From the NCBI GenBank assembly GCA_031276485.1, contig JAISMY010000057.1:1-47504 (forward strand): a DNA stretch of 47,504 nucleotides, read 5' to 3'. This document shows, one piece after another, positions 9,919 through 42,956 of the stretch. How positions within the stretch are numbered: position 1 is the stretch's first letter; each line of letters starts with the position of its first letter. Both the position numbers and the translations under genes were made by a program. The stretch is from Desulfovibrio sp. (GTDB taxonomy: Bacteria > Desulfobacterota > Desulfovibrionia > Desulfovibrionales > Desulfovibrionaceae). A model generated the notes under the pieces. The model was not told the DNA's origin. It ran no database searches and saw only the letters and a program-made list of their open reading frames with translations.

Positions 9919-11703
9919 TCAGGCGATGCCCAAATTCTTCATTTTATAATAGAGTGTGCTGCGCGGGATGCCGAGACTTTTTGCGGCCTGGACCTTGTTG
10001 TTGGCATTGTCCGCGAGCGCCTGCAGGATTTTTTGTTTTTCCTGCCGGCTGACGAAGCCTTCTAAAGTGGCATCCGGTTCCACGCGGGGGGGAGGGGACG
10101 CCGCCTCAGCTGGATCTTGGGCGCTATTGAGCAACGTATCATTCAAATTCGCCTCCACGAGGGACGCGCAGGTCATCGCATCGTTTCCCTCGCAGAGTAC
10201 AATCATGGTCTCAATGGCGTTGCGCAATTGCCGCACATTGCCCGGCCAGGAACAACCTGACAGTGATTTCAGCAATTCCGGAGTGATCTCCGGCGCCGGA
10301 CGCTTAAGGGCTTTGGACAATTCCCCGACAAAGAGGCGGGCCAGCCCCGGAATATCCTCCGGTCGTTTGCGCAAGGGCGGAATATACAGCCGAACCACAT
10401 TGAGGCGATAATACAAATCTTCCCGGAACATTTTGGCCTTTACCAGTTCCTCCATATTGCGGTTTGTCGCGCAGATGATGCGCAGATTGACATGAACCGG
10501 GGTTGAGCCGCCCAGTCGGTGATAGCGGCGCTCCTGGATCGCCCTGAGCAGCTTGCTCTGCAGATACAACGGGATATCGCCGATTTCATCAAGAAACAGT
10601 GTCCCACCGTCGGCCAGTTCAAATTTGCCTTTTTTGCCCTTACGGTCATTGCCGGTAAACGTTCCCGCTTCGTAGCCGAACATTTCGCTTTCAAAAAGAC
10701 CTTCCGGGATGGCGCTACAGTTCACTTCAATGAAGGGACGCCCGAAACGCTTGCTGTGCCTATAGATTTCATAGGCCAGCACCTCCTTGCCGGTTCCGCT
10801 TTCTCCCTCAATAAGGATGGTGGCATCCGTGGCCGCCGCTTTGCGAGCCTGTTGCAGCATATGCCTGGTTTCCGCATTGACAGTGAAAAACAGACATTCT
10901 TTATCCGTAGCGTCTCCGGTGGCGCGCTCAAGCGTTTTGGCTCTGGAAGCCGCCGTTTCAAGCATATCCGACATGCGCATATACCGGCTCACGTCCAGAC
11001 TGGTACATATAGCGCCGCTCAACCTGCCGTCATCGGCATAGATGGGGGTGGTGTTACGCAGCAGAAAAAAGCCAGGCGAGTATTCCACCAAAAAATTTAT
11101 GTATGTTTTGGAGTTGTTGATAACATCCAGAAGCAGATCATCGGGGAAAAAGTCAGCAATCTGTTTATTGAGAACTTCCTTAGAGGTGATGTTGAAAATT
11201 TTTTCTGCAGTTTTATTCCATATTGTTACATTACCATGCTGATCAATGCCTTGAATTGCTTCAGGAATATTATCAATAATTGCATATAAATAATTGCCGA
11301 CAGATTCAAGTTTAAAAGAAAGTGTATTGCAAATATTATTAGCGGTTAAGATGCCGGCAACCGTACCGTCATCATTGATAACAGGCATTCTTCCGACTTT
11401 TTCATTACGCATAAGTTCACGCGCGGATAGAAGCTGCATATTGGCGTTGACAGAAATAGGGTCATACACGCAAATATCCTTTATCTTTTTTGATCCGGAC
11501 ATTTTTTGAGAAAGAAGATTCAGCAGACGCTTCCTGCTCACCAATCCCAGCCTTTTTGTATGACCCGTGACGATAACTTCTGTCCATTCATTGCACAGCA
11601 TCAGATTGAAAGTTTCATCCAAGGAGATGTCCTGATCCACTTCGCCGTAATGTTTGCTCACGGCTTCACCGGCTTTGATCTCGGTCACACGCAGATTGGT
11701 CAT
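9919..11703 (-). CDS. CBS-PAS-AAA+-Fis sigma54-dependent transcriptional activator
   Basis: A 594-residue bacterial enhancer-binding protein. ATG 11703 ([10 protein letters not shown]) is preferred, with a purine-rich GAGAAGAG just ahead; the frame also opens at 11715. N-terminal tandem CBS motifs (about residues 10-125) suggest adenine-nucleotide or similar ligand sensing. A PAS domain follows ([18 protein letters not shown]). The AAA+ domain has Walker A GESGTGKE (Lys306) and Walker [12 protein letters not shown]. The sigma54-contact loop reads GTFTGN (347-352) instead of the usual GAFTGA. The C-terminus is a Fis-type helix-turn-helix ([22 protein letters not shown]). It is transcribed away from the hdr/CoA-transferase cluster, whose start carries a sigma54 promoter, so it is the obvious candidate activator. 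Target and ligand are inferred. Confidence 0.9.
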
Positions 11704-11801
11704 GGCTCTTCTCAATGCGCCGCGCGCGTGCTGACGTACGTAGGCGCGGTATTCTGTTCAGAGGTGCGGAGGGGACACAGCGGACTCCTTACCGATATAT
11801 T

Positions 11802-12581: not shown

Positions 12582-12597
12582 TTGGTATAAAACTTGC
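12582..12597 (+). promoter_or_regulatory. Sigma54 (-24/-12) promoter of the hdr/CoA-transferase cluster
   Basis: TTGGTATAAAACTTGC has GG (12584-12585) and GC (12596-12597) separated by exactly 10 bases, as sigma54 promoters require, and matches YTGGYRYR-N4-TTGC. Transcription should begin near 12609, upstream of the GTG start at 12645. A matching activator gene lies directly upstream on the other strand. Confidence 0.8.
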
Positions 12598-12644
12598 TGA
12601 CTATATACTCTGTATTAACCCGGCTGACAGAGGAGAGACCTCGC

Positions 12645-13226
12645 GTGACAAGAGAACGATTTCGCTATTCCGAAGAAGTAGACGTTGATGTCTATAAGCT
12701 GGTGGACAATTTGCGTTCTTGTCTGGCCTGCGGCAAATGCGTCGGCAACTGTCCGGTGGCCCGCCTGACGCCGTCCTATAACTCTCGTCAGATTATCCGG
12801 GATGTCTTGAGCGGCAACAGCGACCGTTGGTTGCGCAGCGAGGAAATCTGGCGCTGCCTGTGGTGTGCGAACTGTTATACCGTGTGCCCGATGGACATAA
12901 ACTATCCGTTGCTGATGTTGCAGTTGCGCTACAAGGCCATGGAAAGCGGCTACGGCATGCAATACATCGCCCCGTTCAAGAAGTTCGCCCTGCGCGCCAG
13001 GGAAGATGGGCTTACCTTCGCTCCCGGCGGAGAGAAGGGCCGGGCAAGGGTGATGCGCATCCGGAGCAACATCGGCGCTGTGCCTTGGCCGGAAATATCG
13101 GACAAGGCTAAGGCGGAGTATAAGGCTCTGTTTGATCTCTGCGGCACAACCAAATTTGTGGAGGATTTGGACGTTGAAAATCCGCCGCCGCTTGATCTGG
13201 CATATCGGAAAGGGAGGATCGCATGA
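12645..13226 (+). CDS. HdrC-like [4Fe-4S] ferredoxin subunit, first copy
   Basis: A 193-residue protein. The frame opens at TTG 12594, but that codon lies inside the sigma54 promoter, so GTG 12645 behind AGAGGAGAG is the start. Two ferredoxin-type motifs are present, CLACGKCVGNCP and CLWCANCYTVCP, spaced as in HdrC of heterodisulfide reductases. No membrane segment is seen. Its stop overlaps the start of the hdrB-like gene (ATGA), indicating translational coupling. In HdrABC complexes, HdrC wires HdrA to the HdrB active site; the same role is inferred here. It is the first gene after the sigma54 promoter. A second hdrC-hdrB pair follows within 3 kb. Confidence 0.85.
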   Translation: MTRERFRYSEEVDVDVYKLVDNLRSCLACGKCVGNCPVARLTPSYNSRQIIRDVLSGNSDRWLRSEEIWRCLWCANCYTVCPMDINYPLLMLQLRYKAMESGYGMQYIAPFKKFALRAREDGLTFAPGGEKGRARVMRIRSNIGAVPWPEISDKAKAEYKALFDLCGTTKFVEDLDVENPPPLDLAYRKGRIA

Positions 13227-14158
13227 TCCGGAAACGTGTCCTCTCTCCTGAGGAAAGGATTCCAGATATTCCCGAAACCATCTTTCTGTTCAGATCCTGT
13301 ACCGGGAGCATGGAATATCCGGGCACGGAAAATTCCATCAAGGAAATCTGTAAAATTTTGGGCGTACAGGTGGTCATGGATCCGGATCAAACGTGCTGCT
13401 CTGGATATCTGTTGACCTGTTCCGCCTATAAGCCGGAATTTTCTCTGGCGGTCACGGCACGCAACCTCTCCCTTGCCGAAAGCAGAAAATTGGATGTCTA
13501 TGCCTTCTGCAATGGATGCTACGGGTATATCTGCGAACTTTCGCACATCATGCTTCACAATCCTGATTACAAAAAGATGATTGATGGCGTTATTGATCAA
13601 TTAGGATATAAATATGAAGGAAAAACACGTATTTTCCATATGCAAGAATTGTATTACCGCTTGAAAGATAAAATTGTAGAAAATGTAAAAAGACCTCTGG
13701 ACGGGCTGCGTGTCGGCGTGCACTACGGTTGTCACTATCTTGCAAGGCAGTACGGTATTCTGGATGAGGGCGGATATCCCACATTCATAGAAGAGATTAT
13801 TGAGGCTATCGGCGGAACTCCTATTTTTTACAAAGAAAGGCAAGCATGTTGCGGCGGCGCCGTAGGCCGTGGTTTTACGCACAAGGAAAATGTTGTCCAT
13901 GCACATCTCTATAAAAAATTCATGAGCGCGAAAAAAGAAAATATAGAATGCATTGTTACAGTATGTCCAGGATGCAATACATCTCTTGACCGTGAGCAAC
14001 CAGCCATAATGGAAAGATCTGGCGAAGCTATCAATATTCCGATTATTGATATCGGACAGATGATTGCGCTTACTCTGGATGTGGATGTGCAAAAATTGGG
14101 TTTTGAAGCGAATAGTGTTTCGCTTGATTCAGTTCTCAATAAACTGGGTATTCACTAG
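13223..14158 (+). CDS. HdrB-like CCG-domain subunit, first copy
   Basis: A 311-residue protein of the CoB-CoM heterodisulfide reductase subunit B family. Cysteine-rich blocks typical of non-cubane [4Fe-4S] binding are visible: DQTCCSGY with AFCNGCYG in the first half, and [17 protein letters not shown] and TVCPGCN in the second. In methanogens HdrB reduces the CoM-CoB disulfide. In bacteria HdrB-like proteins act on other thiol or unknown acceptors, so the substrate here is open. It starts inside the stop of the hdrC gene. The 3' third is AT-richer than its neighbours. A 126-bp multi-hairpin element follows directly and may lower downstream expression. Confidence 0.83.
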
Positions 14159-14282
14159 AGCAGTTCACAAATGAAATGCGTGAACTGCTCTGCAAGGATT
14201 TGCAGGCAAATCCTTGCCGCGAAACAGGAGCAGGCGGGCTTTGCCCGCCGTAAGCGAACTGTTTCAAGCGTTAACTGCTCTA
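14157..14282. repeat. 126-bp palindromic element of three perfect hairpins with inverted ends
   Basis: Hairpin 1 has 12-bp arms AGAGCAGTTCAC / GTGAACTGCTCT (14157-14168, 14180-14191). Hairpin 2 has 12-bp arms GCAAGGATTTGC / GCAAATCCTTGC with a 2-base loop (14192-14217). Hairpin 3 is GGCGGGC / GCCCGCC (14233-14249). The element closes with AACTGCTCT (14274-14282), the inverse of its opening AGAGCAGTT. It overlaps the hdrB stop and ends 21 bases before the hdrA start. The architecture fits a MITE/BIME-like mobile repeat or an intra-operon processing or attenuation structure. Confidence 0.7.
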
Positions 14283-14303
14283 AAGAAGAAGGAGATCGCT
14301 CAC

Positions 14304-15338
14304 ATGAGTAAGGCGGATACCGCGGCTTTAATAATAGGGGGAGGAATTGCGGGTCTGGAAACGGCCCTGAAGCTGGGCCAAGGCGGTTATACCGTCATTC
14401 TGGCGGAAAAAGAATCGGCCTTGGGCGGCAATGTGGCCAAACTGCACAGCAGTTTTCCCCGCTGGGAGGATCCACAGGAGTTGATAAAAGTGAAGCAGGC
14501 CGAACTGAAGACCCTGCCCTCGGTACGGGTATTGGCAAATACCGAGATCACCGGCCTTCAGAGACAATCAGGCGGCTTCACGGCGCATTGGACGGATAGG
14601 GCAACGCAGAAAAGTGGTTCGCTGCCGGTTCAAGCCCTCATTTTTGCGACCGGATTTGAATTGTTCAATGCATCGGTGTATGGCGAATATGGGTACGGCA
14701 TTTATAAAAATGTTGTAAACTCTCTGGAATTCGAGCATTTGCTTGGAATGTACGAGCAGAGAGCAATTCATGTTCCGGAAAGCATCGCTTTCTTCAAGTG
14801 TGTAGGCAGCCGAGATCGCTCAAAAGGTTTCCCGTACTGTTCAAAGATCTGTTGTATGTATACCGCTAAGCAAGCCGGACTTGTGAAAAAAATATCACCA
14901 GATACACAATGTTATGTATTTTATATGGATTATCGAGCCTCAGGCAAGGAATACGAAGAATTTGTCCGGCAGGTCATTGAGGAGAGAAAAGTACGCTATG
15001 TGCGCGGCCGCCCCTCAAAGGTTGTTCTGGAAAATGACAAACTTCTCGTGCGATTTGAAGACACTTTGATCGGCGTGCCCATGGAGGCTTCCGTGGATCT
15101 GATCGTCCTGGCCAGCGCGGTTGTCCCAAGGCCGGAAACGCTCGCACTGGCGAGAATGCTCGGCCTGAAGACCGACGACTATGGCTTTGTTGAGCCTGTA
15201 TACGGCAGCCCAGTGAGGATTGAGGAACGGATCTTTATGGCCGGCGGTTGCGGCTTCGCCATTGAAAGCCTGGGGGCCATAGCCCAGGGTGCTGCGGCCG
15301 CGGCTGAAGTAACGGCCCTGTTTAACAAGAGTGAATAG
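14304..15338 (+). CDS. HdrA-like FAD subunit, short form
   Basis: A 344-residue protein starting at ATG 14304 behind AAGAAGGAGA; an upstream in-frame start at 14214 lies inside the hairpin element and is rejected. An FAD-binding Rossmann motif is near the N-terminus ([13 protein letters not shown], residues 9-21). The HdrA signature block [20 protein letters not shown] lies near residue 170, followed by [12 protein letters not shown]. The C-terminal part has [20 protein letters not shown], the second FAD contact of this family. The ferredoxin domains of full-length methanogen HdrA are missing, as is the usual Cys-rich insertion after the first FAD motif: the sequence reads [10 protein letters not shown] there. 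HdrA is the flavin site for electron bifurcation in other complexes; whether this short form bifurcates cannot be told. It lies between two hdrC-hdrB pairs. Confidence 0.83.
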
Positions 15339-15341
15339 ACC

Positions 15342-15917
15342 ATGATCGAAACCTATGCAATCCGGCGTCCTGAAGCGCAAGAATCGCCCATTGCCCGTCA
15401 AATCAGGGAAGACCTAGGCATAGACGTGGCCCGTTGCCTGGAATGCGGCAAATGTACCGGCGGCTGTTCCTATGCCGCGGGATTTGACTACACGCCGCGC
15501 AAGATCATCCAGCTCGTCAAGCTGGGTGAATTTGACAAACTGCTTAGCCTGGACGCGTTGTGGACCTGTTTGTCTTGTCAGCTTTGCGTAGATCGTTGCC
15601 CGTCCGGTATAAATATTCCCCGGATCATGGACTATCTGCGCGCAAGAGCTCATCGGGCGAACAGCAACATCACACACAAAAACATTGAAAAATTTTACGA
15701 AATTATGCTCTCTGATATCAAAAATCGCGGAAGAATCAGTGAAACCATTATGATGATCAAATATAATTTGGCCATAAAGAATTTATTTGCCAATGCATCT
15801 TTTGGGAAAAAATTATTTTTAAAAGGAAAGCTCAAATTTTTCAGCCCACGGACACACAATATAAAAACGATTCAACCACTGTTCAGACGTTTGAGTGAAA
15901 AGGACGGTCAGGCATGA
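15342..15917 (+). CDS. HdrC-like [4Fe-4S] ferredoxin subunit, second copy
   Basis: A 191-residue protein starting 3 bases after the hdrA stop. The two cluster motifs CLECGKCTGGC and CLSCQLCVDRCPSG are in HdrC spacing; the first lacks the usual Pro after the last Cys. The region PRKIIQLVKLGE between them is typical of bacterial HdrC. The C-terminal 60 residues are basic and lie in an AT-rich stretch. Its stop overlaps the following hdrB start (ATGA). Inferred role: electron link between the HdrA-like flavoprotein and the second HdrB-like subunit. Confidence 0.87.
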   Translation: MIETYAIRRPEAQESPIARQIREDLGIDVARCLECGKCTGGCSYAAGFDYTPRKIIQLVKLGEFDKLLSLDALWTCLSCQLCVDRCPSGINIPRIMDYLRARAHRANSNITHKNIEKFYEIMLSDIKNRGRISETIMMIKYNLAIKNLFANASFGKKLFLKGKLKFFSPRTHNIKTIQPLFRRLSEKDGQA

Positions 15918-16786
15918 ACGTAGCTTTTTATCCGGGTTGTTCACACCATGGATTAGCTCAGGAATATGATCATACTTCCCGTTTGATTTGTTCCCATCTG
16001 GCCGTCAACTTGACCGAGGTGGAGGATTGGAATTGCTGCGGCGCTACAGCCGCGCACAGTCTCGACCACGATCTTTCGCTGGCGCTGAATGTGCGCAATC
16101 TGGCGCAGGTGAAGCGGGGCGGCCATGATTCAGTTGTCACTCCCTGCTCAGGCTGCTTCAGCCGCCTCAAGACCGCCGCGCATGAGATTCGGCACGACCC
16201 CGACAGGCTGGCGGAAATTTCCCGGAAGCTGGAATGCCCCCTGCCCGAGAATGTCGAAGTGAGACATCTCCTGCAACTTATCGTGGAAGAATATTCTCTG
16301 GATCGGATCCGCGCTCTGGTCAAAAAACCACTCTGCGGGCTGAAGGCGGCCGCCTATTACGGCTGCCTGTTAACGCGGCCGGCGGCTGTAACGCGCTTTG
16401 ACGACCCGGAGCAACCGCGGTCCATGGACAATCTGTTGCAGGCCCTTGGCGCTGAACCGGTAACCTGGTCGTACAAGGCCGAATGTTGCGGCGGCGGCTT
16501 TAACGCTTCAGAGCCGGTCATCGCTCTGGAGCTGGGGCAGGCGATTCTGGACTCGGCGAAAAATGCGGGGGCCGAGGCGATCATAGCCGCTTGTCCGCTG
16601 TGTCAGATGAACCTTGACGGCCGGCAGGGAGAGATGACCCCGCCTTTCGGGGGCAAATACGATATCCCCGTGGTCTATTTCACACAATTGATGGGCTTGG
16701 CCTTCGGCTATGCCTGGAGGGAACTGCGATTCAAAAAATTGATTGTGAACCCAAGAAAACTGCTGGAAAAGTATTGTCTGTTGTAA
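15914..16786 (+). CDS. HdrB-like CCG-domain subunit, second copy
   Basis: A 290-residue protein with the full canonical HdrB pattern: FYPGCSHHG at the N-terminus, DWNCCGATAAH, TPCSGCFSR, then YYGCLLTRPA, AECCGGGFN and AACPLCQMN. These CX(n)CCGX(n)CXXC blocks bind the paired non-cubane clusters of HdrB. It is translationally coupled to the hdrC gene before it. It is closer to the methanogen-type HdrB than the first copy, so the two HdrB proteins may serve different acceptors or form one large complex. A 109-base gap with a small hairpin separates it from the CoA-transferase genes. Confidence 0.87.
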   Translation: MNVAFYPGCSHHGLAQEYDHTSRLICSHLAVNLTEVEDWNCCGATAAHSLDHDLSLALNVRNLAQVKRGGHDSVVTPCSGCFSRLKTAAHEIRHDPDRLAEISRKLECPLPENVEVRHLLQLIVEEYSLDRIRALVKKPLCGLKAAAYYGCLLTRPAAVTRFDDPEQPRSMDNLLQALGAEPVTWSYKAECCGGGFNASEPVIALELGQAILDSAKNAGAEAIIAACPLCQMNLDGRQGEMTPPFGGKYDIPVVYFTQLMGLAFGYAWRELRFKKLIVNPRKLLEKYCLL

Positions 16787-16840
16787 ACGCTGGACTGAAC
16801 AAAACATCAAACAAAGGAGAAACTATTATTATATCGTTCT

Positions 16841-16856
16841 GACGGTTTATGCCGTC
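16841..16856 (+). other. Small hairpin between hdrB and the CoA-transferase genes
   Basis: GACGG and CCGTC form a 5-bp stem with a 6-base loop about 40 bases before the CoA-transferase A start. There is no T-run. It could modulate read-through or mRNA stability inside the operon; significance is low. Confidence 0.3.
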
Positions 16857-16895
16857 GCACAAACAATTTTAACATATATCAATGGAGGCAGTGAA

Positions 16896-17879
16896 ATGCG
16901 TAGTAAGTTGATTACCATACAGGAAGCCGTACAAAAGTATACTTGGGACGGCATGACCTATGCTCACGGTGGAGCTTTGCCCGTTGGGACAGACTCAATT
17001 GCATTCGGCAGAGAGATGCTGAAGCAAGATCGCAAGCATTTAAACGTCATCTCCAATTGCAACACCCAGCAAACAAATCTTCTCGCGGCGGCCGGGCGCA
17101 TCAAAAGGATAGAAATCGGCTTTTCCGGCCTGGAAGTATACGGTTTCGCCAACGGATTGAAACGGGCCGTGGAAACCGGCGTGACTGTGCTCGAAGACTA
17201 TTCCAACGGAAGCATCCCCCTGCGCATGCTGGCGGGAGCTTTGAACATGCCCTTCATACCCGCCAACGCCGGTTTCGGTTCAGATCAGGAATATTGCTGC
17301 GGCGACAGGCCGGACGAATATCCCTGCTCCAGCAAGCTGCCTTGGGTGAAAGACCCCTTCAGCGGAAAAAATGTTCCCGTTTACACCGCCGTCCGTCCGG
17401 AGACAGCCTCCATCCATGTGACGATGGCGGACATATACGGAAACGCCATCATGCTGGGAACGGAATGGAACCGCTACGAACTGTCCCGCGCCGCGCAAAA
17501 AGTCGTTCTGCAAGCTGACTTCATCGTTGACACCGACTGCATGCGCCAGTTCCCGAACTTGGTCAGAATCCCCGATGCGGTGGTGGACGCTGTGGTTTAC
17601 TGGCCTTACGGCGTCTGGCCGCAATGCTCAGTGGGTGTTTACGACTCCGATGAAAAGGCGATGAAGGAGATGAACGCAGCGCTCAAGACCGTCGAGGGAA
17701 CCGAAGAATACATCAAAAAATTTGTCAACTCGTATTCCACTGTTCAGGAATGGCTGGATTTGCTGGGTAAAGAGCGCATCGACCTGATCAGCAACACGGT
17801 GACCAAATTCCTGATGGATCCCTATCGGCGGTGGATCAAGTCGGACGCCGAAGTCCTGCAGATGTTGGAAAGGAGGTAA
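16896..17879 (+). CDS. CoA-transferase subunit A, GctA-like
   Basis: A 327-residue protein with GGAGG nine bases before its ATG. It belongs to the family I CoA-transferase alpha-subunit fold, closest in length and layout to glutaconate CoA-transferase subunit A (about 320 residues). Visible marks are the glycine-rich N-terminal part (YAHGGALPVGTDSIAFG), VLEDYSNGSIPLRMLAGALN with a conserved Glu, and PVYTAVRPETASIHVTMADIYGN. It forms a pair with the next gene, 5 bases downstream. Likely reaction: moving CoA between a small acid and an acyl-CoA in the cytosol. The acid is not identifiable; the GctA-like length hints at a dicarboxylic or branched acid only weakly. Confidence 0.82.
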   Translation: MRSKLITIQEAVQKYTWDGMTYAHGGALPVGTDSIAFGREMLKQDRKHLNVISNCNTQQTNLLAAAGRIKRIEIGFSGLEVYGFANGLKRAVETGVTVLEDYSNGSIPLRMLAGALNMPFIPANAGFGSDQEYCCGDRPDEYPCSSKLPWVKDPFSGKNVPVYTAVRPETASIHVTMADIYGNAIMLGTEWNRYELSRAAQKVVLQADFIVDTDCMRQFPNLVRIPDAVVDAVVYWPYGVWPQCSVGVYDSDEKAMKEMNAALKTVEGTEEYIKKFVNSYSTVQEWLDLLGKERIDLISNTVTKFLMDPYRRWIKSDAEVLQMLERR

Positions 17880-17884
17880 GCGAA

Positions 17885-18679
17885 ATGGAATGCACTCGTC
17901 AGGAAATGATGGCTATCGCCACAGGCAGGGAATTCAGCAACGGAGAACTGGCCATCTTCGGCGTGGGTCTCAGCATGCTGGCCGGCTACTGGGCGCAAAA
18001 AAACCATGCCCCGGACCTTGTGGCCTTTACGGAAGGCGGTGTCTTCGGTTCTTCCCCGGTGGGCGGCCTGCCCTGGGGTATTGAAGATACAAGAATTTCA
18101 GCCAACGCCACCAGCTTTACCAACGCCATAGACGCCCTTGGCTGCCTGGTCGCTTCCGGCCGGGTGGACAATGCGGTGATCGGGGCGGCGCAGATTGACA
18201 AGTTCGGCAACGTCAACACCACCGGCATCTGGGAGGAAGGAACCCAGCCTTGGAAGGCGGGGCGCTACACCTTGCCGAAGGTACGCCTGAACGGCAGCGG
18301 CGGTGCGAATGAAATCGCCTGCGGCGCTAAGAAATTCATCCTCATGGTCACGCATGAGAAAAAACGCTTCGCGGACAGGGTGGATTACATTTCCTCCCCC
18401 GGCTACCTCTCCGGCGGGGACTCCCGTGCGAAAATGGGCTTTGTCGGCGGCGGTCCGTGCTGCGTGGTAACCACTCTGGGCATCCTGCGCCCGGATCCCG
18501 TCACCAAGGAATTCTATCTGGATGCGTATTATCCTTTCTCCAGCGTGGAAGAGATCAAGGAAAACACCGGCTGGGATCTGAAGGTTTCGGCGAACGTCAA
18601 GATGGCTCCCGAGCCAACGGCGAAGGAATTGGCAAATCTCCGGGCAATCGACACGACCGGTTCACTGCGCAAAGGCTGA
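17885..18679 (+). CDS. CoA-transferase subunit B, GctB-like, catalytic Glu present
   Basis: A 264-residue protein. ATG 17885 is chosen because GGAAAGGAGG lies just upstream, although the frame is open from 17831. It carries FTEGGVFG with Glu50 at the position of the catalytic glutamate that forms the CoA thioester intermediate in family I transferases. Further marks are DNAVIGAAQIDKFGNVN and the C-terminal YYPFSSVEEIKENTGWDLK common to GctB-like subunits. It pairs with the preceding A subunit. The next gene, a CstA-family carrier, follows after 16 bases, so uptake and activation of the same acid is a reasonable inference. Confidence 0.84.
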   Translation: MECTRQEMMAIATGREFSNGELAIFGVGLSMLAGYWAQKNHAPDLVAFTEGGVFGSSPVGGLPWGIEDTRISANATSFTNAIDALGCLVASGRVDNAVIGAAQIDKFGNVNTTGIWEEGTQPWKAGRYTLPKVRLNGSGGANEIACGAKKFILMVTHEKKRFADRVDYISSPGYLSGGDSRAKMGFVGGGPCCVVTTLGILRPDPVTKEFYLDAYYPFSSVEEIKENTGWDLKVSANVKMAPEPTAKELANLRAIDTTGSLRKG

Positions 18680-18695
18680 CGACAAGGAGAAAACC

Positions 18696-20357
18696 ATGCA
18701 AATTACGACAACGACACTTACTCTTGTAGGCGTGGCCATCTGGATTTTCGGCTACTTGGTGATAAGCGGCTATCTGCAGAAGGTCTATCTGAAATACAAA
18801 CCGGGACGCAAGGTTCCAGCCGTAGAACTGCGCGACGACGTAGACTTTTACCCGGCCCATCCCACCACTCTCTTCGGCGATCACTGGGCGTCCATCGCCG
18901 GCGGCGCGCCTCTGGCCGGTGGAGCTACCGGCGCCCTGTGGGGTTTTCTGCCCGCCTTTTTGTATATTACCGTGGGAAACATTTTTCTTGGTTCTCCCCA
19001 TGACTATGCGACCATGCACATTTCCATGCGCAGGAAGGGGAATACCATCGGCACGCTGATCAGTGACCTGATCAGCCGGAGAAGCGGCAAAATGGGGGTT
19101 TTCCTGGGTTGGTGCAGTATAGCCGCGTTCACGGCGACATTCCTGAACGCCCTGGGAAAACTTTTTGAGGCCACACCGCAACTTACGCTCCCCACCATTG
19201 CTTTTACCGCCTGCGGCGTTATGATGGGATTTCTGATCTACCGTTTCGGCTGGTCGGTCACCAGGGCCACTGTTGTGGGCATAGCTATAGTCGTGGCTTG
19301 CATTTTCCTCGGCCTGAAGTACCCCATAACCCTTCCCCACTATGTTTGGTTTGTGATTTTCACGATCTACCCGATCATTTCCGCCTCCATACCGGCATGG
19401 GTTCTGGTGGAACCCAGGAATTTCCTGAACTTTGTCTTTATGTGCGTGGGTGCGCTGGTGCTGCTGATCGGCTGCATCGTGGGCAATCTGCCCATTCAGC
19501 TGCCGGCGGTTATGCTGGAAGCACCCACCAACGGCGCGCCGCTGTGGCCGATGCTCTTTCTGACCATTTCCTGCGGCGCCCTGACCGGCATGCATTCCTT
19601 CTGGACCACGGGCTACACCTCACGCAGGGTGCCGGATGAAAAGTACGTGCGTCGCATTGGCTATGGCGGAGAAGTGCTGGAAGGCCTGACCGCTTTCGTC
19701 GCCTTGGCTTCAGCAGCTGTTCTGCCTCTGGCACTTTATTCCGAATACATAGGCAAGGGCTGGATCTTCATTCTGCAGAACGGATACGCGGAAATCGCGG
19801 GTAGCGTGTTCAGCTTCATTCCTCATCATGTCTGGGCGATCTGGGGCGGCCTGCTCGGCAGCATCTTCATGATCACCACACTGGAGTCCGGCGCCCGCAA
19901 TATGCGGATATTCATGCTTGAGCTGTACGGAATGTCGGCCAAGCCCGTTTCCCCGAACAATGCGCCGGCCAAATGGGGCGCGGCTACCCTGTCTCTGGCG
20001 GCTTGCGCGGCGCTCGCCCTTTCCGGCGGCTGGTTTTACATCTGGATCCTTTTCCCGGCTCTGTCGAGCCTGCTGGCCCTGATGTCCTTCATGACGGTCA
20101 TCGTGTGGCTCAAGCTTGTGGGCCGGCCCACAGGCTACTGGTGGTTCGCGCTCCTGTTCACCACCCTTATTATCGCCGTGCCGGGCGCTGCTTATCTGAG
20201 CTACACCTATATCGTGCAGAGCATGTGGCATCTCTGCTGGATCCCGGCTGTCGCGATTGTGCTTGTCCTCATCTTCTTTATTGATTTCATGAAAAAGATG
20301 AGAGGAATCTCTCCGGAAGACGTCAGAATCGCCACAGCGGTCGAAGAAACTGCATAA
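18696..20357 (+). CDS. CstA-family membrane carrier
   Basis: A 553-residue, very hydrophobic protein with about 13 membrane segments, starting at ATG behind AAGGAGA. The N-terminal block with FGDHWASIAGGAPLAGG and SPHDYATMHISMRRKGNTIG matches the pattern of carbon starvation protein A (HFxAIAGxGPLxGP; DFxxxxxSxRxxGxSxG). The middle ISCGALTGMHSFWTTGYTSR matches CstA ISCGAxSGFHxxxxSGTTSK. CstA proteins import pyruvate or peptides. At 553 residues it is shorter than E. coli CstA (about 700). Sitting between two CoA-transferase-like gene pairs, it probably carries the carboxylate used by this cluster; that is inference. Confidence 0.8.
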   Translation: MQITTTTLTLVGVAIWIFGYLVISGYLQKVYLKYKPGRKVPAVELRDDVDFYPAHPTTLFGDHWASIAGGAPLAGGATGALWGFLPAFLYITVGNIFLGSPHDYATMHISMRRKGNTIGTLISDLISRRSGKMGVFLGWCSIAAFTATFLNALGKLFEATPQLTLPTIAFTACGVMMGFLIYRFGWSVTRATVVGIAIVVACIFLGLKYPITLPHYVWFVIFTIYPIISASIPAWVLVEPRNFLNFVFMCVGALVLLIGCIVGNLPIQLPAVMLEAPTNGAPLWPMLFLTISCGALTGMHSFWTTGYTSRRVPDEKYVRRIGYGGEVLEGLTAFVALASAAVLPLALYSEYIGKGWIFILQNGYAEIAGSVFSFIPHHVWAIWGGLLGSIFMITTLESGARNMRIFMLELYGMSAKPVSPNNAPAKWGAATLSLAACAALALSGGWFYIWILFPALSSLLALMSFMTVIVWLKLVGRPTGYWWFALLFTTLIIAVPGAAYLSYTYIVQSMWHLCWIPAVAIVLVLIFFIDFMKKMRGISPEDVRIATAVEETA

Positions 20358-20375
20358 TAAGGAGTGTGATGCGTT

Positions 20376-20651
20376 ATGGCTGATACGGGATTGACCCAGG
20401 TCCAGACTCTCTATCTTGAAGCACTACGGGACGGCACCAAAGATTCGAGTACGCTCATGAAAATTGTCCGCGATCGGTTGACCGAACTGAAGGGTGGCAA
20501 CAATCCTGTAGGCGCTACAGGTCGGGCGCAGATGGTGCTGCAGGAACTTGAAGAGCTGGGATATATTATGAAAGTCGGCGGCAGTATTTTCGGCGGCAAG
20601 AAATATGATCTGACGGACAAGGGCAGAACAGTCATCACGCAGGCGCTATGA
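20376..20651 (+). CDS. Small winged-helix-like protein of unknown function
   Basis: A 91-residue protein behind TAAGGAG. I do not recognise the family. The layout, helices (VQTLYLEALRDG, AQMVLQELEELGYIM) followed by a short hairpin (GGSIFGGKKYDLTDKGRTVI), resembles a winged-helix domain of the PadR/ArsR kind, in which the YxLTxKGR ending is common. The gene overlaps the next one (ATGA), which encodes an intramembrane metalloprotease-like protein. A DNA-binding protein coupled to such a protease suggests a signalling pair, but a structural or adaptor role is equally possible. Confidence 0.55.
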   Translation: MADTGLTQVQTLYLEALRDGTKDSSTLMKIVRDRLTELKGGNNPVGATGRAQMVLQELEELGYIMKVGGSIFGGKKYDLTDKGRTVITQAL

Positions 20652-21607
20652 GCAGCGTGTCGCGGCAGGGGCTGGAAAACCTGGAAAAGCAATTGCGCGG
20701 ACTGGAAAGGAATACGGCCCGGATCAGGTTTTTGCAGGAAAAGGGCTGCCCGGTCGGGACTTCACTGAAGGATGTTTCCGCGGAGCTTGCGGACATAGGC
20801 GAGCAGCTTTCGGCCCACAAAACGGCAAATTCGAAATCGGACGAGGATCTCGGGGCGATGATCGCAAAATACCGGAGACTGGTGGAGCAATGCGCGATGA
20901 TTGCCGAAGGGATTGAACCCCGGGGCGCAGTTCTGGTCAGTGAAAGACTCCTGCCCGAATTCCTCGTCCGGTTGGTGGCCCGCCGCCCTGCCTTGTGGCG
21001 ATGCTACGAAGCAGTCGCGACCTTTATGGGAATAGCCATGATCGCCTTCACCTGTGCCGCAATGACCTATTTTGCCGCCATCGGCGGCATTCCGTTCCTC
21101 CGGCATTATGGAAACGGATCAGTAAGCATAAAGGGCCTTGCCTTCATCTGCGGTATTGTCTTGGGGTTATGCCTGCATGAATTTTCCCACGGCATCGCGC
21201 TGACGAACAACGGCATAAGGATCAAACGGATAGGCGCCATAGCCGGCTTTATTGTCGGCGGATTTGTCGAAGCGGAGGAAGATTCCTTCAACCGCGCCGA
21301 GCCTGCAGCGCGTTTACGGTTCAACGCCTGCGGCATAGGAGGCAACGCCCTTGCGGGTTTGCTCCTGTGTCCGGCCGCCCTCGCCGTTTCAGACGTATTG
21401 CTGTTTATGACTCTGGGAAATGTATTTTTCGGCATGATCAACGCCTTCCCCATCAGCCCCCTGGACGGCGGCTGGGTCTATGAGGATATTGTTCGCATGC
21501 GGATTAACAATAAGCACATAAGGAGGGTTCTGCTGTCGGCCAGATTTTTTGTTCTGATTTTCTGGCTGGCTCTTTTTACGCGTTCGGTTCTCGCGTACCA
21601 TTCATAG
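20648..21607 (+). CDS. Site-2-protease-like (M50) membrane metalloprotease with coiled-coil head
   Basis: A 319-residue protein translationally coupled to the preceding small gene. Residues 1-95 are charged and helical, probably a coiled coil (ENLEKQLRGLERN, SAELADIGEQLSAHK). Membrane segments then begin near residue 130. HEFSH at 177-181 gives the zinc motif HExxH, and NAFPISPLDGGWVYED, with Asp273, matches the NxxPxxxLDGG third zinc ligand region of S2P/M50 proteases. All expected catalytic residues appear present. Such enzymes cut membrane-embedded substrates, often anti-sigma factors or regulators. Its place inside a metabolic operon, between a carrier and CoA-transferases, is unusual. 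The substrate could be the carrier or a regulator. Confidence 0.78.
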   Translation: MSSVSRQGLENLEKQLRGLERNTARIRFLQEKGCPVGTSLKDVSAELADIGEQLSAHKTANSKSDEDLGAMIAKYRRLVEQCAMIAEGIEPRGAVLVSERLLPEFLVRLVARRPALWRCYEAVATFMGIAMIAFTCAAMTYFAAIGGIPFLRHYGNGSVSIKGLAFICGIVLGLCLHEFSHGIALTNNGIRIKRIGAIAGFIVGGFVEAEEDSFNRAEPAARLRFNACGIGGNALAGLLLCPAALAVSDVLLFMTLGNVFFGMINAFPISPLDGGWVYEDIVRMRINNKHIRRVLLSARFFVLIFWLALFTRSVLAYHS

Positions 21608-21623
21608 GATATGGAAAATATCC
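21607..21623 (+). other. Intercistronic hairpin before the second CoA-transferase pair
   Basis: GGATAT and ATATCC form a 6-bp perfect stem with a GGAAA loop. It lies between the protease stop and the AGGAGG site of the next gene. It may shield the upstream mRNA or tune translation of the following pair. Confidence 0.35.
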
Positions 21624-21642
21624 GAAACAGGAGGTGGCTCTT

Positions 21643-22458
21643 ATGATCAGGAAAGTTATGGACATGAAGTCGGCCGTCAATCTCATTAAAGAAGGACAGT
21701 TGTTGGGATTCGGCGGCAACTCTTTGCACAGAACGCCTGCGGCGTTCGGATTTGAACTGGCCAATCGGGGTTTAAAAAAGCTGAAACTGTGCAACACCGC
21801 TCAGGGTATTGCATCAGACATTCTTTGCGCCATGGACGCAGTGGACACGCTGTACTTCGGATTTTTCGGATTTGAAAACCAGTACGGGCTGGCTCCGGGC
21901 ATGCGCAAAGGCTGCCAGGAGGGGAAGATAAAAGTCATGGAAGGGCCGTGCACCGCCATCATCGCGGCCCTTCGCGCCAGCGCCTGTGGAGTGCCGTTTA
22001 TGACCATGGCCGGCCTTTGGGGGAGCCAGTTGATCGACCAGCTCCCAGGGTTCTACCGCGTGGTGGAAAGTCCCTTTGACGGAACCAAAGTCGTTGCCGT
22101 CAAGGCGCTCAGACCCGACTACGCCGTCCTCCATGTGCATGAAGCGGACGAATTCGGCAATGCCCGGATCAACGGCAGCGACTATCAGGATGTGCTGCTC
22201 TCCCGCGCGGCGGCCAAAACCATTATCACAGCAGAAAAGATCGTTCCGACCAAGACCTTCCAAGATAACCCGAAACTCACCTCTATCCCGCATTTTTTGG
22301 TTGCAGCGGTGGTGGAAGCGCCCGAAGGGGCGAAACCCGGTTATTGTTTTGGCTTGTACGACACGGCCGATGACGCCGGGATGAAAGCGTATCAGAAAGC
22401 CGTCAAGGAAAACGCCGTGCCTGCGTATCTGGCGAACGTCACGGAAAGGAGGGCATAG
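21643..22458 (+). CDS. Second CoA-transferase-like subunit A (IpdA-like?)
   Basis: A 271-residue protein. ATG 21643, 8 bases after AGGAGG, is chosen; the frame also offers GTG 21634, which overlaps the ribosome site. The fold is again the CoA-transferase A type (GQLLGFGGNSLHRTPAAF, VMEGPCTAIIAALRASACGVPFMT, VLHVHEADEFGNARINGS). It is about 55 residues shorter than the first A subunit and clearly diverged from it. Glu100 in VMEGPC falls in the region where IpdA of the cholesterol-degrading hydrolase IpdAB keeps its catalytic glutamate; this placement is from memory, not an alignment. Its B partner lacks the classical Glu. The pair could therefore be a hydrolase rather than a transferase. Confidence 0.75.
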   Translation: MIRKVMDMKSAVNLIKEGQLLGFGGNSLHRTPAAFGFELANRGLKKLKLCNTAQGIASDILCAMDAVDTLYFGFFGFENQYGLAPGMRKGCQEGKIKVMEGPCTAIIAALRASACGVPFMTMAGLWGSQLIDQLPGFYRVVESPFDGTKVVAVKALRPDYAVLHVHEADEFGNARINGSDYQDVLLSRAAAKTIITAEKIVPTKTFQDNPKLTSIPHFLVAAVVEAPEGAKPGYCFGLYDTADDAGMKAYQKAVKENAVPAYLANVTERRA

Positions 22459-22460
22459 AG

Positions 22461-23189
22461 ATGGAATATGGATATCCTGAAATGATGTGCGTGGCCCTTG
22501 CCCGGGAAATCAAAAACGGAGATGTGGTCTTCCACGGGCTCGCCTCTCCGGTTCCCATGACGGCGATTAAGTTGGCCAAAGCTTTGGGCAAGGAATTTAC
22601 TTACGTAAATCTCACTGGTGGCGTTGACCCCGACATCAGCAAGCCGGCGGAGATTTCCTCCACTCTGGGGCGGAACCAGTATGAAGGTACAGTGGCGCAT
22701 TTCGGTCTGGACGAAATATTCGATCTGGCCGGAAGAGGGGGAGTGGACATCTCTTTCCTGTCTTTGATTCAGATTGATCAAAAGGGCAGAATCAATATGT
22801 CCTATGTCGGCGGAACTTGGGAACAGCCGAAACTGCGCCTGCCCGGCGGAGCAGGCAGTGCCTTTCTGACCCCGGTCACCAACCGCACGACTATCTGGAG
22901 AACCAAGCATGACGACAGGACTCTGGTGGAAAAGGTGCAGTTCGCGACTGCCGCCGCCGATCCGGGCAAGGATTTCACTCTCGTCACCAATCTGTGCGTT
23001 TTCCGCCTGAAGGACGGTATCTTGCGTCTAGACGCGATCTTCCCGTATTCTTCCTTTGAAGAGGTGCAGAAAAACACGGGTTGGATTATAGACGAGAAAA
23101 ACGCCCCTCTCATGGACCCCCCGGCGGAAGCGGAACTTGCCGCTCTGGACAAGGTGGACCCGAACAAGATACGCTTGTCCGAGTTCTAG
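22461..23189 (+). CDS. Second CoA-transferase-like subunit B, catalytic Glu replaced by Thr
   Basis: A 242-residue protein starting 2 bases after the A subunit, behind AAAGGAGGG. It aligns by eye along its length with the first B subunit: opening MEYGYPEMMCVALAREIKNG against MECTRQEMMAIATGREFSNG, and closing IFPYSSFEEVQKNTGWI. Where the first copy has FTEGG, this one has NLTGG, so the thioester-forming Glu is Thr52. Loss of this Glu is known from IpdB-type proteins, whose complex hydrolyses a cyclic CoA thioester. An acyl-CoA hydrolase or C-C cleaving function is thus more likely than classical CoA transfer, but unproven. A strong hairpin follows the gene. Confidence 0.75.
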   Translation: MEYGYPEMMCVALAREIKNGDVVFHGLASPVPMTAIKLAKALGKEFTYVNLTGGVDPDISKPAEISSTLGRNQYEGTVAHFGLDEIFDLAGRGGVDISFLSLIQIDQKGRINMSYVGGTWEQPKLRLPGGAGSAFLTPVTNRTTIWRTKHDDRTLVEKVQFATAAADPGKDFTLVTNLCVFRLKDGILRLDAIFPYSSFEEVQKNTGWIIDEKNAPLMDPPAEAELAALDKVDPNKIRLSEF

Positions 23190-23212
23190 TCTCTTCCGTA
23201 TTCATCAGCGCG

Positions 23213-23238
23213 GGAAGCCCTCCGGTGCGAGGGCTTCC
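23213..23238 (+). terminator. Terminator-like hairpin after the second CoA-transferase pair
   Basis: GGAAGCCCTC and GAGGGCTTCC form a perfect 10-bp stem with a 6-base loop, followed by a pyrimidine-rich TGTCCTTTCCCTCTCTG. It begins 24 bases after the stop codon. It probably ends or reduces the sigma54-driven transcript, leaving the reductase gene downstream at lower level or under its own promoter. Confidence 0.6.
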
Positions 23239-23280
23239 TGTCCTTTCCCTCTCTGATTTTCAGTCGAAGGCGGTAGCGTG

Positions 23281-24972
23281 ATGCGTGGTGGTGCGAAAAG
23301 CGATTCAGGGGCATCGGTCCGGAAAGTCGTCGTGGTGGGCGGCATGGCCGCCGGGGCAAGCGCGGCCGCCAGACTGCGCCGGCTGGACGAGAATCTGGAG
23401 ATCATCGTGCTGGAGAAGGGCGAATATATCTCCTACGCCAGTTGCGGACTCCCCTATTATGTGGGCCGCGTTGTTGAGGACCGTAAAAAACTGATCATCC
23501 AAAGCCCGTCTTCCATGAGCAAACGCTTCCATCTGGAGGTGCGCACCGGGCACGAGGCGCTGGAAATCACGCCCGCCGCGAGGACCGTAAAGATCCTGGT
23601 TCGAAAGGACGGCCGCGAATACGATGAAACTTACGACCGCCTGCTGCTGTGTCTTGGGGCCAAGGCTGCGCTGCCGGATCTGCCGGGCATGGACATGGAG
23701 AATGTCTTCACGGTGAACGACATCCCCGGCGGAGACGCCGTCAGAACCTATGTAGATACCAGGGGATGCGCAAGAGCGGTGATTGTCGGCGCAGGTCCCG
23801 TCGGCCTGGAAATGGCAGAGATGCTGCGCAAAATGAATCTGGAAACGCATTTGGTGGATATGGCCGGACAGGCCATGCCGGCTTTTGATCCGGATATGGC
23901 CTCTTTTGTGCTGGAAGAGTTGCTGCGTAACCAGGTAAAACCGCATCTGGGCGCTAAAGTGGCACGTCTGGACGGCGAAGGCGGCCGAGCCCACTCAGCC
24001 CTTCTGGATAACGGCGAGGAAATCAAAACGGATTTTGTCCTCTTCGCATCGGGAGTGAAGCCGCAGAGCGGGCTGGCCGAACGGGCCGGACTGGCTGTGG
24101 GCGAAACCGGCGGCGTCCTTGTAGACGACTATCTACGCACGTCCGATCCCCATATCTATGCGGCAGGCGATGTTATCCAGACGAGCAGCATAGTTTCCGG
24201 TAACGCCGCGGCTTTTTCCGCTGCGGGGCCGGCAGGCAGGCAGGGCTGGATCGCAGCCAACAACATCTGCGGACTACAGATTCCTTACCACGGCGTACAG
24301 GGCACCGTGATTGTCAAAATTTTCAACCTGACGGCGGCCGCCACCGGACTCAACGAAAAGATCCTGCAACGCTTGGGTATTACCCACCAGTGCGTGCATG
24401 TCGCGCCGGATTCCCACGCCGGGTATTATCCCGGCGCTTCCACTGTGACCATAAAGCTGCTTTTCAGCCCGGGGGAGGGACGCGTCCTCGGCGCCCAGCT
24501 TGTGGGTGAGTCCGGGGTGGACAAGCGGGCCGATGTTCTGTCTACAGCCCTGCGTTCCAGATTGACGGTCCATGACCTGCAGGAACTGGAACTGGCCTAT
24601 GCGCCACCCTATTCTTCAGCCAAGGATCCGGTCAACGTGGCGGCCTATGCCGCAGGCAACGTGTTGCGCGGTCTGACTGAGGTCGTCCGCTGGGAGCGGG
24701 CGCAGGAGTATATTGAGGAGGGAGCTTTTTTACTGGATGTGCGCACGGAAAAGGAATTTTCCAAAGGCGCGGTTCCGTGTGCCTGCAATATTCCCCTTGA
24801 CGCCCTCAGGGAGCGTTGCGGGGAACTCCCGGCGGGCCGCACGATACTGGTCTACTGCCTTTCCGGACTGCGCAGTTATATGGCCGCGCGCATCCTCAGG
24901 CAGCGCGGTTTCCGGGCCTGCAATCTGAGCGGCGGATGGCATTTATACCGACGCCTTTATCCACGCCCCTAG
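23281..24972 (+). CDS. CoA-disulfide / persulfide reductase with C-terminal rhodanese domain
   Basis: A 563-residue protein from ATG 23281; a GTG directly before it is equally possible. The N-terminal FAD motif is VVVGGMAAGASAAARLRRLD. The redox cysteine Cys55 in SYASCGLPYY is the single active-site Cys of CoA-disulfide reductases. A second nucleotide motif VIVGAGPVGLEMAEML binds NAD(P)H, and IYAAGDV is the second FAD contact. The last 100 residues are a rhodanese domain with LLDVRTEKEF and catalytic Cys526 in VYCLSGLRS. This CoADR-rhodanese architecture is known for CoA-disulfide reductases and NADH-dependent persulfide reductases. Being next to CoA-thioester and Hdr genes, it may recycle CoA disulfide or persulfide formed in the pathway, or serve general sulfur metabolism. 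Confidence 0.85.
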   Translation: MRGGAKSDSGASVRKVVVVGGMAAGASAAARLRRLDENLEIIVLEKGEYISYASCGLPYYVGRVVEDRKKLIIQSPSSMSKRFHLEVRTGHEALEITPAARTVKILVRKDGREYDETYDRLLLCLGAKAALPDLPGMDMENVFTVNDIPGGDAVRTYVDTRGCARAVIVGAGPVGLEMAEMLRKMNLETHLVDMAGQAMPAFDPDMASFVLEELLRNQVKPHLGAKVARLDGEGGRAHSALLDNGEEIKTDFVLFASGVKPQSGLAERAGLAVGETGGVLVDDYLRTSDPHIYAAGDVIQTSSIVSGNAAAFSAAGPAGRQGWIAANNICGLQIPYHGVQGTVIVKIFNLTAAATGLNEKILQRLGITHQCVHVAPDSHAGYYPGASTVTIKLLFSPGEGRVLGAQLVGESGVDKRADVLSTALRSRLTVHDLQELELAYAPPYSSAKDPVNVAAYAAGNVLRGLTEVVRWERAQEYIEEGAFLLDVRTEKEFSKGAVPCACNIPLDALRERCGELPAGRTILVYCLSGLRSYMAARILRQRGFRACNLSGGWHLYRRLYPRP

Positions 24973-37034: not shown

Positions 37035-37063
37035 TTGATAAATGACGGCGTGAGACGTGTCAA
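37035..37063 (-). promoter_or_regulatory. Sigma70-type promoter of the aromatic operon
   Basis: On the minus strand: perfect TTGACA (complement of 37058-37063), 17-base spacer, TATCAA (complement of 37035-37040; 4 of 6). A start near 37028 leaves about 19 bases before the TTG start of the leader peptide. Confidence 0.7.
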
Positions 37064-37140
37064 GCGTTTTTAGACAGCATTTTTTCGACAATTCGGAGCT
37101 TCGCGCAAGACAACGCACAACAGCCGAGGAGTTACAGCAC

Positions 37141-39453: not shown

Positions 39454-39508
39454 GGGATTACGCAAATACTTTTACGGTCTATACACAAGCGCCGGACAAT
39501 ATTCGGCG

Positions 39509-39558
39509 CGCCGCCGAAGGCGGCGAGAACGAGGCGAATCATCGCTTTCGAGCGATTC
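39509..39558 (+). other. Two hairpins between cas3 and cas5c
   Basis: CGCCGCC / GGCGGCG with a GAA loop (39509-39525), then GAATC-AT-CGCT / AGCGATTC around a TTCG tetraloop (39536-39558). No T-run follows. They may cause partial termination or processing, separating the level of Cas3 from that of the Cascade genes. Confidence 0.45.
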
Positions 39559-39585
39559 TGAGCGAAAAGCCTTTTCTGCTTTTAG

Positions 39586-40290
<705 letters not shown>

Positions 40291-40302
40291 GGAGACGGCG
40301 TT

Positions 40303-42066: not shown

Positions 42067-42068
42067 TT

Positions 42069-42935: not shown

Positions 42936-42956
42936 GGAACAGCCTGTGATGTATTC

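Follow-up and report, generated by a model that had tools for sequence, protein, structure and literature searches.

Described enzymes with the coenzyme A (CoA)-transferase fold include GctAB of Acidaminococcus fermentans, AibAB of Myxococcus xanthus, a 3-methylglutaconyl-CoA decarboxylase, and IpdAB, a steroid-ring hydrolase in which loss of the equivalent Glu accompanies hydrolase function (PMC5380842). Heterodisulfide reductase (Hdr) complexes are known from methanogens (HdrABC), from syntrophs (Flox-Hdr) and from sulfur oxidation (sHdr), and the selenocysteine (Sec)-dependent systems include Grd, Prd and Far (glycine/sarcosine/betaine, proline and fluoroacetate reductase, respectively), the last being a precedent for Sec-dependent reduction of alpha-substituted acetates (PMC10838667). 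Here we describe an operon of a Desulfovibrio sp. (GenBank assembly GCA_031276485.1, contig JAISMY010000057.1; the whole stretch of 47,504 nucleotides (nt) analysed is referred to as the window) that combines five Hdr-like subunits in the order C1-B1-A-C2-B2 (HdrCBACB), a GctAB pair (pair 1), a carrier and an AibAB-like pair (pair 2), the alpha subunit of which is the Cys form of a candidate selenoprotein family.

Pair 1 closely resembles the Acidaminococcus GctAB and retains the catalytic Glu, whereas pair 2 lacks it and has an alpha subunit that groups in a distinct clade (support 100/99). Pair 2 resembles AibAB and IpdAB in fold (Z about 25) and in the lost Glu, but unlike them it has an alpha-subunit Sec or Cys at the position of the PQG-motif Gln and is associated with HdrCBACB; it also has Leu or Ile where AibB has a Cys. 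Complete HdrB CCG motifs and HdrC clusters are shared with methanogen HdrABC and Flox-Hdr, but the short HdrA (344 residues in the window) lacks the ferredoxin domains known from methanogens, the CB arms are duplicated, and the operon contains no MvhD. Neither were FlxABCD genes found beside the hdr genes, all operon genes being assigned to other families. The C1-B1-A-C2-B2 order and short HdrA are those of sHdr, whereas the operon lacks both hyp and lbpA, and its partners are CoA enzymes. With Grd, Prd and Far the operon shares Sec dependence and a PrdR-like sigma54 activator, the far operon also includes a carrier, and HdrCBACB adjoins a Grd-type operon in one genome; however, no homology of AibAB to GrdA or GrdB was found, and CoA thioester activation would replace the substrate-specific protein B.

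Conservation of the operon

Relatives were gathered by a GctA scan, followed by class- and phylum-wide searches with an AibA alignment, and their surroundings were read. The GctA scan recovered the operon from a Desulfovibrionaceae metagenome-assembled genome (MAG), L001, whose isolate name suggests a termite-gut source, and from several Syntrophomonadaceae. It is whole or nearly whole in L001, L003, L005, L007, L045-L047, L050, L051, L053, L078-L081 and L089-L093, usually in the order activator, HdrC1, HdrB1, HdrA, HdrC2, HdrB2, GctA, GctB, carrier, AibA, AibB, often with a CoA-disulfide reductase. Comparison of these loci indicates that the operon is real and conserved in two phyla, in Desulfovibrionaceae and Syntrophomonadia. 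An earlier note on the window had staked its proposal of a new system on such co-occurrence, which this search bears out, though its suggested range, Desulfobacterota, proved too narrow, as most copies lie in Syntrophomonadia (Bacillota-type).

Of the 15 Syntrophomonadia genomes that have the Sec gene, 14 also have HdrB1, against 6 of the 48 that lack the Sec gene (Fisher p 1.4e-8). Reduced arrangements also occur: in L052 HdrCBACB lies immediately upstream of the AibAB Sec pair, without GctAB; L081 has only C1-B1-A of the Hdr genes, directly ahead of the Sec pair; and in L079 and L080 an AtoDA-type CoA-transferase takes the place of GctAB. Eight cysteines each are conserved in HdrC1 and HdrC2 and four clustered ones in HdrA, and both CCG motifs are complete and invariant in HdrB1 and HdrB2, as in methanogen-type HdrB. 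Judged by these motifs, HdrCBACB is a complex in which a single FAD subunit bears two complete active sites of the disulfide type, in line with the electron transfer through Hdr-type thiol/disulfide chemistry that had been suggested earlier.

The carrier slot is filled in most relatives by a major facilitator superfamily (MFS) protein, nearest to the PgtP and galactonate carrier subfamilies, or otherwise by a trio of a CstA-type carrier, a 91-residue protein and an M50 protease (window, L001, L053, L089-L093), which from these loci is a replaceable transporter module. The three were inseparable wherever seen (18696-21607 in the window), and the protease may regulate or process the CstA carrier.

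Conservation of the window's GctA is 81% to that of L001 and roughly 65-79% to those of Syntrophomonadia, and of its GctB 89% and roughly 75-85%, respectively. This high conservation across phyla suggests a single common substrate of the GctAB-bearing operons. The flanks, read for substrate clues, hold mostly housekeeping genes, and Pseudothauera L006, which has GctAB without the rest of the operon, gave no clue either. An in-frame TAA in GctA of L002 was rejected as recoding: it occurs in a single MAG and was taken as sequencing error or decay.

A candidate selenoprotein family

In L001 and the Syntrophomonadia the AibA-like alpha subunits have TGA at one codon, in the context EG[PS]-U-TA; the corresponding codon of the window is TGC. 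Syntrophomonadia have 14 close homologues of full length, each with exactly one in-frame TGA and no further stop, and among the remaining full-length relatives scores fall from 461 to 142 bits. With L001 and L078-L081, which have TGA at the same codon, this gives 19 relatives of the Hdr-linked clade from two phyla, in which the reading frame is preserved on both sides of the TGA as in selenoproteins, the window protein being their Cys homologue. TGA also occupies the aligned column in three distant solitary relatives (L084, L086, L088), while the column is Cys in L082, L083, L085, L065 and L066 and Asn in GctA proteins.

Fifteen nt past the UGA codon lies a hairpin of 6 bp resembling a selenocysteine insertion sequence (SECIS), with the loop CGUGC (CGUGG in two sequences). 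It is 100% paired in 15 sequences, two pairs showing compensatory double changes, a degree of covariation reached by 0 of 500 shuffles; sliding controls were 30-66% paired. Synonymous usage is also constrained: the mean modal-codon share of the five hairpin codons is 0.90 (0.93-1.0 for the first four), compared with 0.50 for other invariant Ala, Leu, Arg and Gly codons, and the hairpin value was obtained in none of 100,000 draws. Folding-energy z-scores of single hairpins are weak, and the SECIS case was decided by covariation and codon constraint rather than by these energies. SelB was found in 6/6 of the Sec-operon genomes searched and SelA in 4/4. A search of the window genome (G000, 86.9% complete) found neither SelA nor SelB, and in its genus SelA scores above the cut-off in 4 of 15 genomes. 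In the tree the window Cys protein is nested inside the Sec clade beside L001 (100/99), so replacement of Sec by Cys is the simplest history. From this evidence the AibA-like alpha subunits almost certainly constitute a new candidate selenoprotein family.

A profile alignment, weak but significant, places the Sec column on the Gln of the PQG motif in L061, a type I CoA-transferase with fused subunits. In CtfAB the residue hydrogen-bonded to the catalytic Glu is Q98 (PMC12400318). We take Q98 to be the PQG-motif Gln. In the predicted model of the window protein the equivalent residue, Cys103, is the first of helix 103-115, a position that would favour a reactive thiolate.

No NCBIfam model (June 2026) covers the family, the best being TIGR02429 with 36.8 bits against a cut-off of 128.5. 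Word searches of a 2026 review of prokaryotic selenoproteins, which counts CoA-disulfide reductase and HdrA among Sec families, returned no CoA-transferase family (PMC13188914). We found no relevant paper joining selenocysteine, CoA-transferase and Hdr in a literature coverage that is incomplete, so an earlier mention is possible.

Two CoA-transferase-fold pairs

Both pairs of the window belong to PF01144, and the earlier note had listed both as CoA-transferase-fold pairs. Treating them as CoA-transferases holds for pair 1, in which the catalytic Glu of type I CoA-transferases is present in 16/16 GctB sequences and whose closest sequence is 1poi GctAB, but not for pair 2, in which it is absent from all 25 AibB-like beta subunits and which is very probably not a CoA-transferase. 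The closest sequences to pair 2 are AibAB and GctAB, and the predicted fold of its alpha subunit (predicted local distance difference test score, pLDDT, 77) is nearest to IpdA, AibA and GctA (Z 24-25.5). The model matches 5mzw with Z 24.9, as expected of the AibAB decarboxylase fold. In AibB a Cys stands where the Glu was lost; in pair 2 the corresponding residue is Leu or Ile. The retained Glu of GctAB supports the suggested carboxylate import and CoA activation. A redox step that had been thought missing or encoded elsewhere now has its best candidate in pair 2, because the Glu is lost and an active-site Sec or Cys is present.

Proposed mechanism and its alternatives

In the scheme that we propose from the gene content, and that stands a little short of an even chance, a small carboxylate would be imported by the carrier and GctAB would transfer CoA to it, giving a thioester for selenol- or thiol-dependent reductive conversion. 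The AibA-like selenol or thiolate would attack the acyl-CoA near the alpha (or vinylogous) position, and take off a substituent, with the acyl-CoA enolate as leaving group, so that the enzyme would end in a Se-X or Se-S/S-S state. This bond would then be reduced by the two-headed HdrCBACB, the corresponding bond in glycine reductase being reduced by thioredoxin. The substrate would act as an electron sink, in a Stickland-like reduction on a CoA thioester, and the CoA-disulfide reductase would keep CoA or persulfide species reduced. A redox partnership between pair 2 and HdrCBACB is reasonably probable and, if it is granted, the direction is quite likely reductive rather than oxidative. A bolder reading, which we offer tentatively, is that pair 2 may represent a new class of redox enzyme, a Sec-dependent acyl-CoA reductase or reductive eliminase on a CoA-transferase fold, driven by HdrCBACB and without a flavin, pyruvoyl group or metal of its own, and that HdrCBACB would also serve glycine-reductase-type selenoenzymes.

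A reductive role is favoured by the PrdR-like activator and by Hdr genes linked to Grd. In L094/L096, HdrC1-B1-A-C2 lies 326 nt downstream of a glycine/sarcosine-reductase-type operon consisting of GrdE/G-like, GrdB/F-like (UGA), TrxB, TrxA, GrdA (UGA), GrdC and GrdD genes, of which GrdA and TrxA were assigned from sequence by eye. It is preceded by a gene reading as a carboxylate carrier and a thiolase-like gene, the latter also present in L003 and L055, and with the substrate-specific Grd and Far models its GrdE/G- and GrdB/F-like proteins score far under the cut-offs. Among the operon proteins no match to GrdA/GrdB or PrdA/PrdB was found, and Grd genes lie beside HdrCBACB only in L094.

Several observations weigh against the reductive scheme. 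The Grd link is a single contig that ends within HdrC2 and has its own TrxA and TrxB, and the activator, although its nearest curated family is the proline reductase regulator PrdR (NCBIfam NF041552), scores 545 bits against it, below the cut-off of 795, and is not a member. The contigs of L091, L092 and L093 hold complete Hdr-GctAB-CstA operons but no Sec pair, so operon and pair are separable, the pair in those strains being either located elsewhere or dispensable; in the L089 and L090 genomes an AibAB-like pair lies on another contig than the Hdr operon. Conversely, solitary Sec/Cys AibAB-like pairs without Hdr occur in L082-L088. Finally, none of sulfite, thiosulfate and fumarate serves Syntrophothermus lipocalidus as acceptor with butyrate (PMC3035303), so it is uncertain whether the physiology of this organism calls for a sink.

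The alternative that survives best is a non-redox one, in which the AibAB-like pair would be an acyl-CoA decarboxylase or C-C hydrolase using Sec/Cys as nucleophile or in acid-base catalysis, with Hdr serving another step. The proteins nearest to it in structure and sequence, AibAB (a decarboxylase) and IpdAB (a hydrolase), have likewise lost the Glu (for IpdAB, PMC5380842), and the solitary pairs do without Hdr. We nevertheless consider it unlikely, given the strong genome-level co-occurrence of the pair with HdrCBACB, the Leu or Ile at the AibB Cys position, and the view that prokaryotic selenoproteins are mostly redox enzymes (PMC9312934).

Distinctly unlikely is an oxidative direction, in which the Sec/Cys pair would take electrons from the acyl-CoA, for example through an alpha-selenenyl or thio intermediate and elimination to the enoyl-CoA, an acyl-CoA dehydrogenation free of electron-transferring flavoprotein (Etf), and HdrCBACB would reoxidise the selenol/thiol pair and pass the electrons on. 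Syntrophomonadia do live by acyl-CoA oxidation, the operon has no other redox enzyme for acyl-CoA, and, read by eye, L081 adjoins genes resembling acyl-CoA dehydrogenase, hydroxyacyl-CoA dehydrogenase and thiolase, and L052 adjoins acyl-CoA-dehydrogenase-like genes. We know of no precedent for enzyme-bound oxidation of acyl-CoA through a bond between Se and the alpha carbon, however, and the single alternative partner of HdrCBACB observed is a reductase operon. Moreover, Syntrophomonadia already own Etf-linked acyl-CoA dehydrogenases and Etf-linked reductases (PMC5017805).

Recruitment of an sHdr-type sulfur-oxidation system to organosulfur catabolism is highly improbable. The gene order and short HdrA (PMC6067878), the full-length alignment of HdrA to the sHdrA structure 6tjr and the nearby CoA-disulfide reductase-rhodanese all fit it, but HdrA scores higher against methanogen HdrA than against sHdrA, the hyp gene is missing between A and C2, and no lipoate-binding gene adjoins the operons, for which reason the cluster is not filed as sHdr. 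GcvH-like genes of the genomes searched, recognised as GCV_H matches in eight genomes, are found on other contigs or at a distance from the operon, and G096 has one weak 60-residue GCV_H match 10 kb from the operon. Weakest of all, with practically no chance, is that the UGA reflects a decayed gene with a premature stop or an error of assembly, which is ruled out by the hairpin covariation and the frozen synonymous codons, and opposed by the same codon, with the frame kept on both sides, in 19 Hdr-clade relatives from two phyla and by the presence of the Sec machinery.

Surroundings of the pairs without HdrCBACB

The solitary pairs of L084, L086 and L088 contain the in-frame TGA and have no Hdr genes near; those of L086 and L088 adjoin an amidohydrolase-like gene and that of L084 a permease-like gene. 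The Cys-form pair of L085 adjoins genes reading as a corrinoid protein, a methyltransferase and a CaiB-type CoA-transferase. In L065 and L066, from the window's genus, a Cys-form pair occurs with an aliphatic-sulfonate-type ATP-binding cassette (ABC) importer, a QueG-like iron-sulfur protein, a 164-residue protein and an acyl-CoA ligase of the AMP-forming type; these genes may form a parallel route for the use of a sulfonate or a related acid. From this importer and ligase, reductive desulfonation is kept only as a lead for the reaction of the operon.

Layout and regulation in the window

Open reading frames with Pfam and NCBIfam matches delimit 12 co-directional genes on the + strand between about 12645 and 23189 (Table 1), one more than the eleven first counted. 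The five Hdr-like subunits, CstA-type carrier and intramembrane protease named in the earlier note were confirmed, the small 91-residue protein having no match in Pfam and NCBIfam searches. Spacing is mostly by overlaps or tiny gaps, as described, with exceptions of about 145 nt ahead of HdrA and 109 nt ahead of GctA.

Table 1 Features of the window and coordinates of loci in relatives
Feature	Locus	Position	Strand	Remarks
CBS-PAS-sigma54 AAA activator	window	9919..11715	-	Pfam; Fis-type helix-turn-helix (HTH_8)
-24/-12 sigma54 promoter	window	12583..12598	+	TGGTATAAAACTTGCT; two mismatches
HdrC1	window	12645..13226	+	Pfam; two [4Fe-4S] sites; 8 Cys invariant in 19 loci
HdrB1	window	13223..14158	+	Pfam; both CCG motifs complete
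HdrA, short, 344 residues	window	14304..15338	+	probable ATG 14304; FAD domain, four conserved Cys
HdrC2	window	15342..15917	+	Pfam; 8 invariant Cys
HdrB2	window	15914..16786	+	Pfam; both CCG motifs complete
GctA-type CoA-transferase alpha subunit	window	16896..17879	+	PF01144; 1poi_A E 1e-22
GctB-type CoA-transferase beta subunit	window	17885..18679	+	probable ATG 17885; 1poi_B E 1.3e-43; Glu kept (FTEGG)
CstA-type carrier	window	18696..20357	+	Pfam
91-residue protein	window	20376..20651	+	in every case accompanies CstA and M50
M50 intramembrane metalloprotease	window	20648..21607	+	HExxH intact
AibA-like alpha subunit	window	21643..22458	+	ATG 21643; Cys form of candidate selenoprotein family
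TGC (Cys) codon	window	21949..21951	+	TGA in 19 Hdr-linked clade relatives
SECIS-hairpin position	window	21967..21983	+	degraded: stem mismatches, loop CGCGC for CGUGC
AibB-like beta subunit	window	22461..23189	+	CoA-transferase Glu absent
Hairpin	window	23213..23238	+	GGAAGCCCTC-CGGTGC-GAGGGCTTCC; perfect 10-bp stem, after aibB
CoA-disulfide-reductase/rhodanese fusion	window	23278..24972	+	both catalytic Cys conserved in 8 loci
FAD-linked oxidase fusion	window	469-4152	-	1227 residues
Type I-C-like CRISPR-Cas genes	window	37057-44605		downstream
Grd-type operon with HdrC1-B1-A-C2	L094	56-10560		
Grd-type operon with HdrC1-B1-A-C2	L096	4273-9000		
Solitary pair	L084	9417-10951		in-frame TGA
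Solitary pair	L086	8383-9938		in-frame TGA
Solitary pair	L088	9485-11037		in-frame TGA
Cys-form pair and neighbours	L085	4495-10279		
Cys-form pair and neighbours	L065	4767-12136		
Cys-form pair and neighbours	L066	433-7724		
In-frame TAA in GctA	L002	2590		one MAG

The -24/-12 promoter recognised earlier recurs in relatives: among 19 operon starts, the window included, 17 show a site with no more than two mismatches and 10 a site with no more than one, and the site precedes whichever gene is first in each operon. A generic scan with the bare pattern gave 9 matches in the window, where 26 are expected by chance, and was dropped as promoter evidence. The listed TTG start of HdrC1 at 12594 overlaps the -12 box, while a GTG at 12645 behind GAGGAGAG suits. 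The CBS-PAS sigma54 activator was confirmed by Pfam and its gene adjoins the operon in relatives too, but the divergent orientation is confined to the window, most relatives having it upstream and co-directional. No repeats were found between activator and promoter, and an Rfam scan of the window gave no match.

The unit had been taken to end at a hairpin with a 10-bp stem. The stem is indeed perfect, and the hairpin may be a terminator or processing site, but only a weak T tract follows it, and the functional unit extends to 24972, because the CoA-disulfide reductase/rhodanese gene starts only 40 nt further on and keeps its place close to the cluster in 8 loci. Elsewhere in the window, a FAD-linked oxidase fused to iron-sulfur and CCG domains is encoded near the cluster, and CRISPR-Cas genes (Cas3, Csd1, Cas7, Cas1) lie downstream.

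Implications

Each component of the operon belongs to a known fold, while neither the combination nor the Sec enzyme has, to the extent that these tools reveal, been described. As no NCBIfam model exists and Sec in a CoA-transferase fold was not among the families found in the review, AibA-like genes have probably been annotated wrongly, as split or truncated ones. The cluster is present in a cultured type strain, Syntrophothermus lipocalidus, and the natural Cys form of the window would allow expression in E. coli without Sec insertion. The short HdrCBACB outside sulfur oxidation gains a concrete partner, which suggests that Hdr complexes may be able to serve selenoenzymes in general. The operon thus predicts a so far undescribed carboxylate pathway in anaerobic-digester syntrophs and termite-gut bacteria, and points to undescribed anaerobic redox chemistry on CoA-activated acids.

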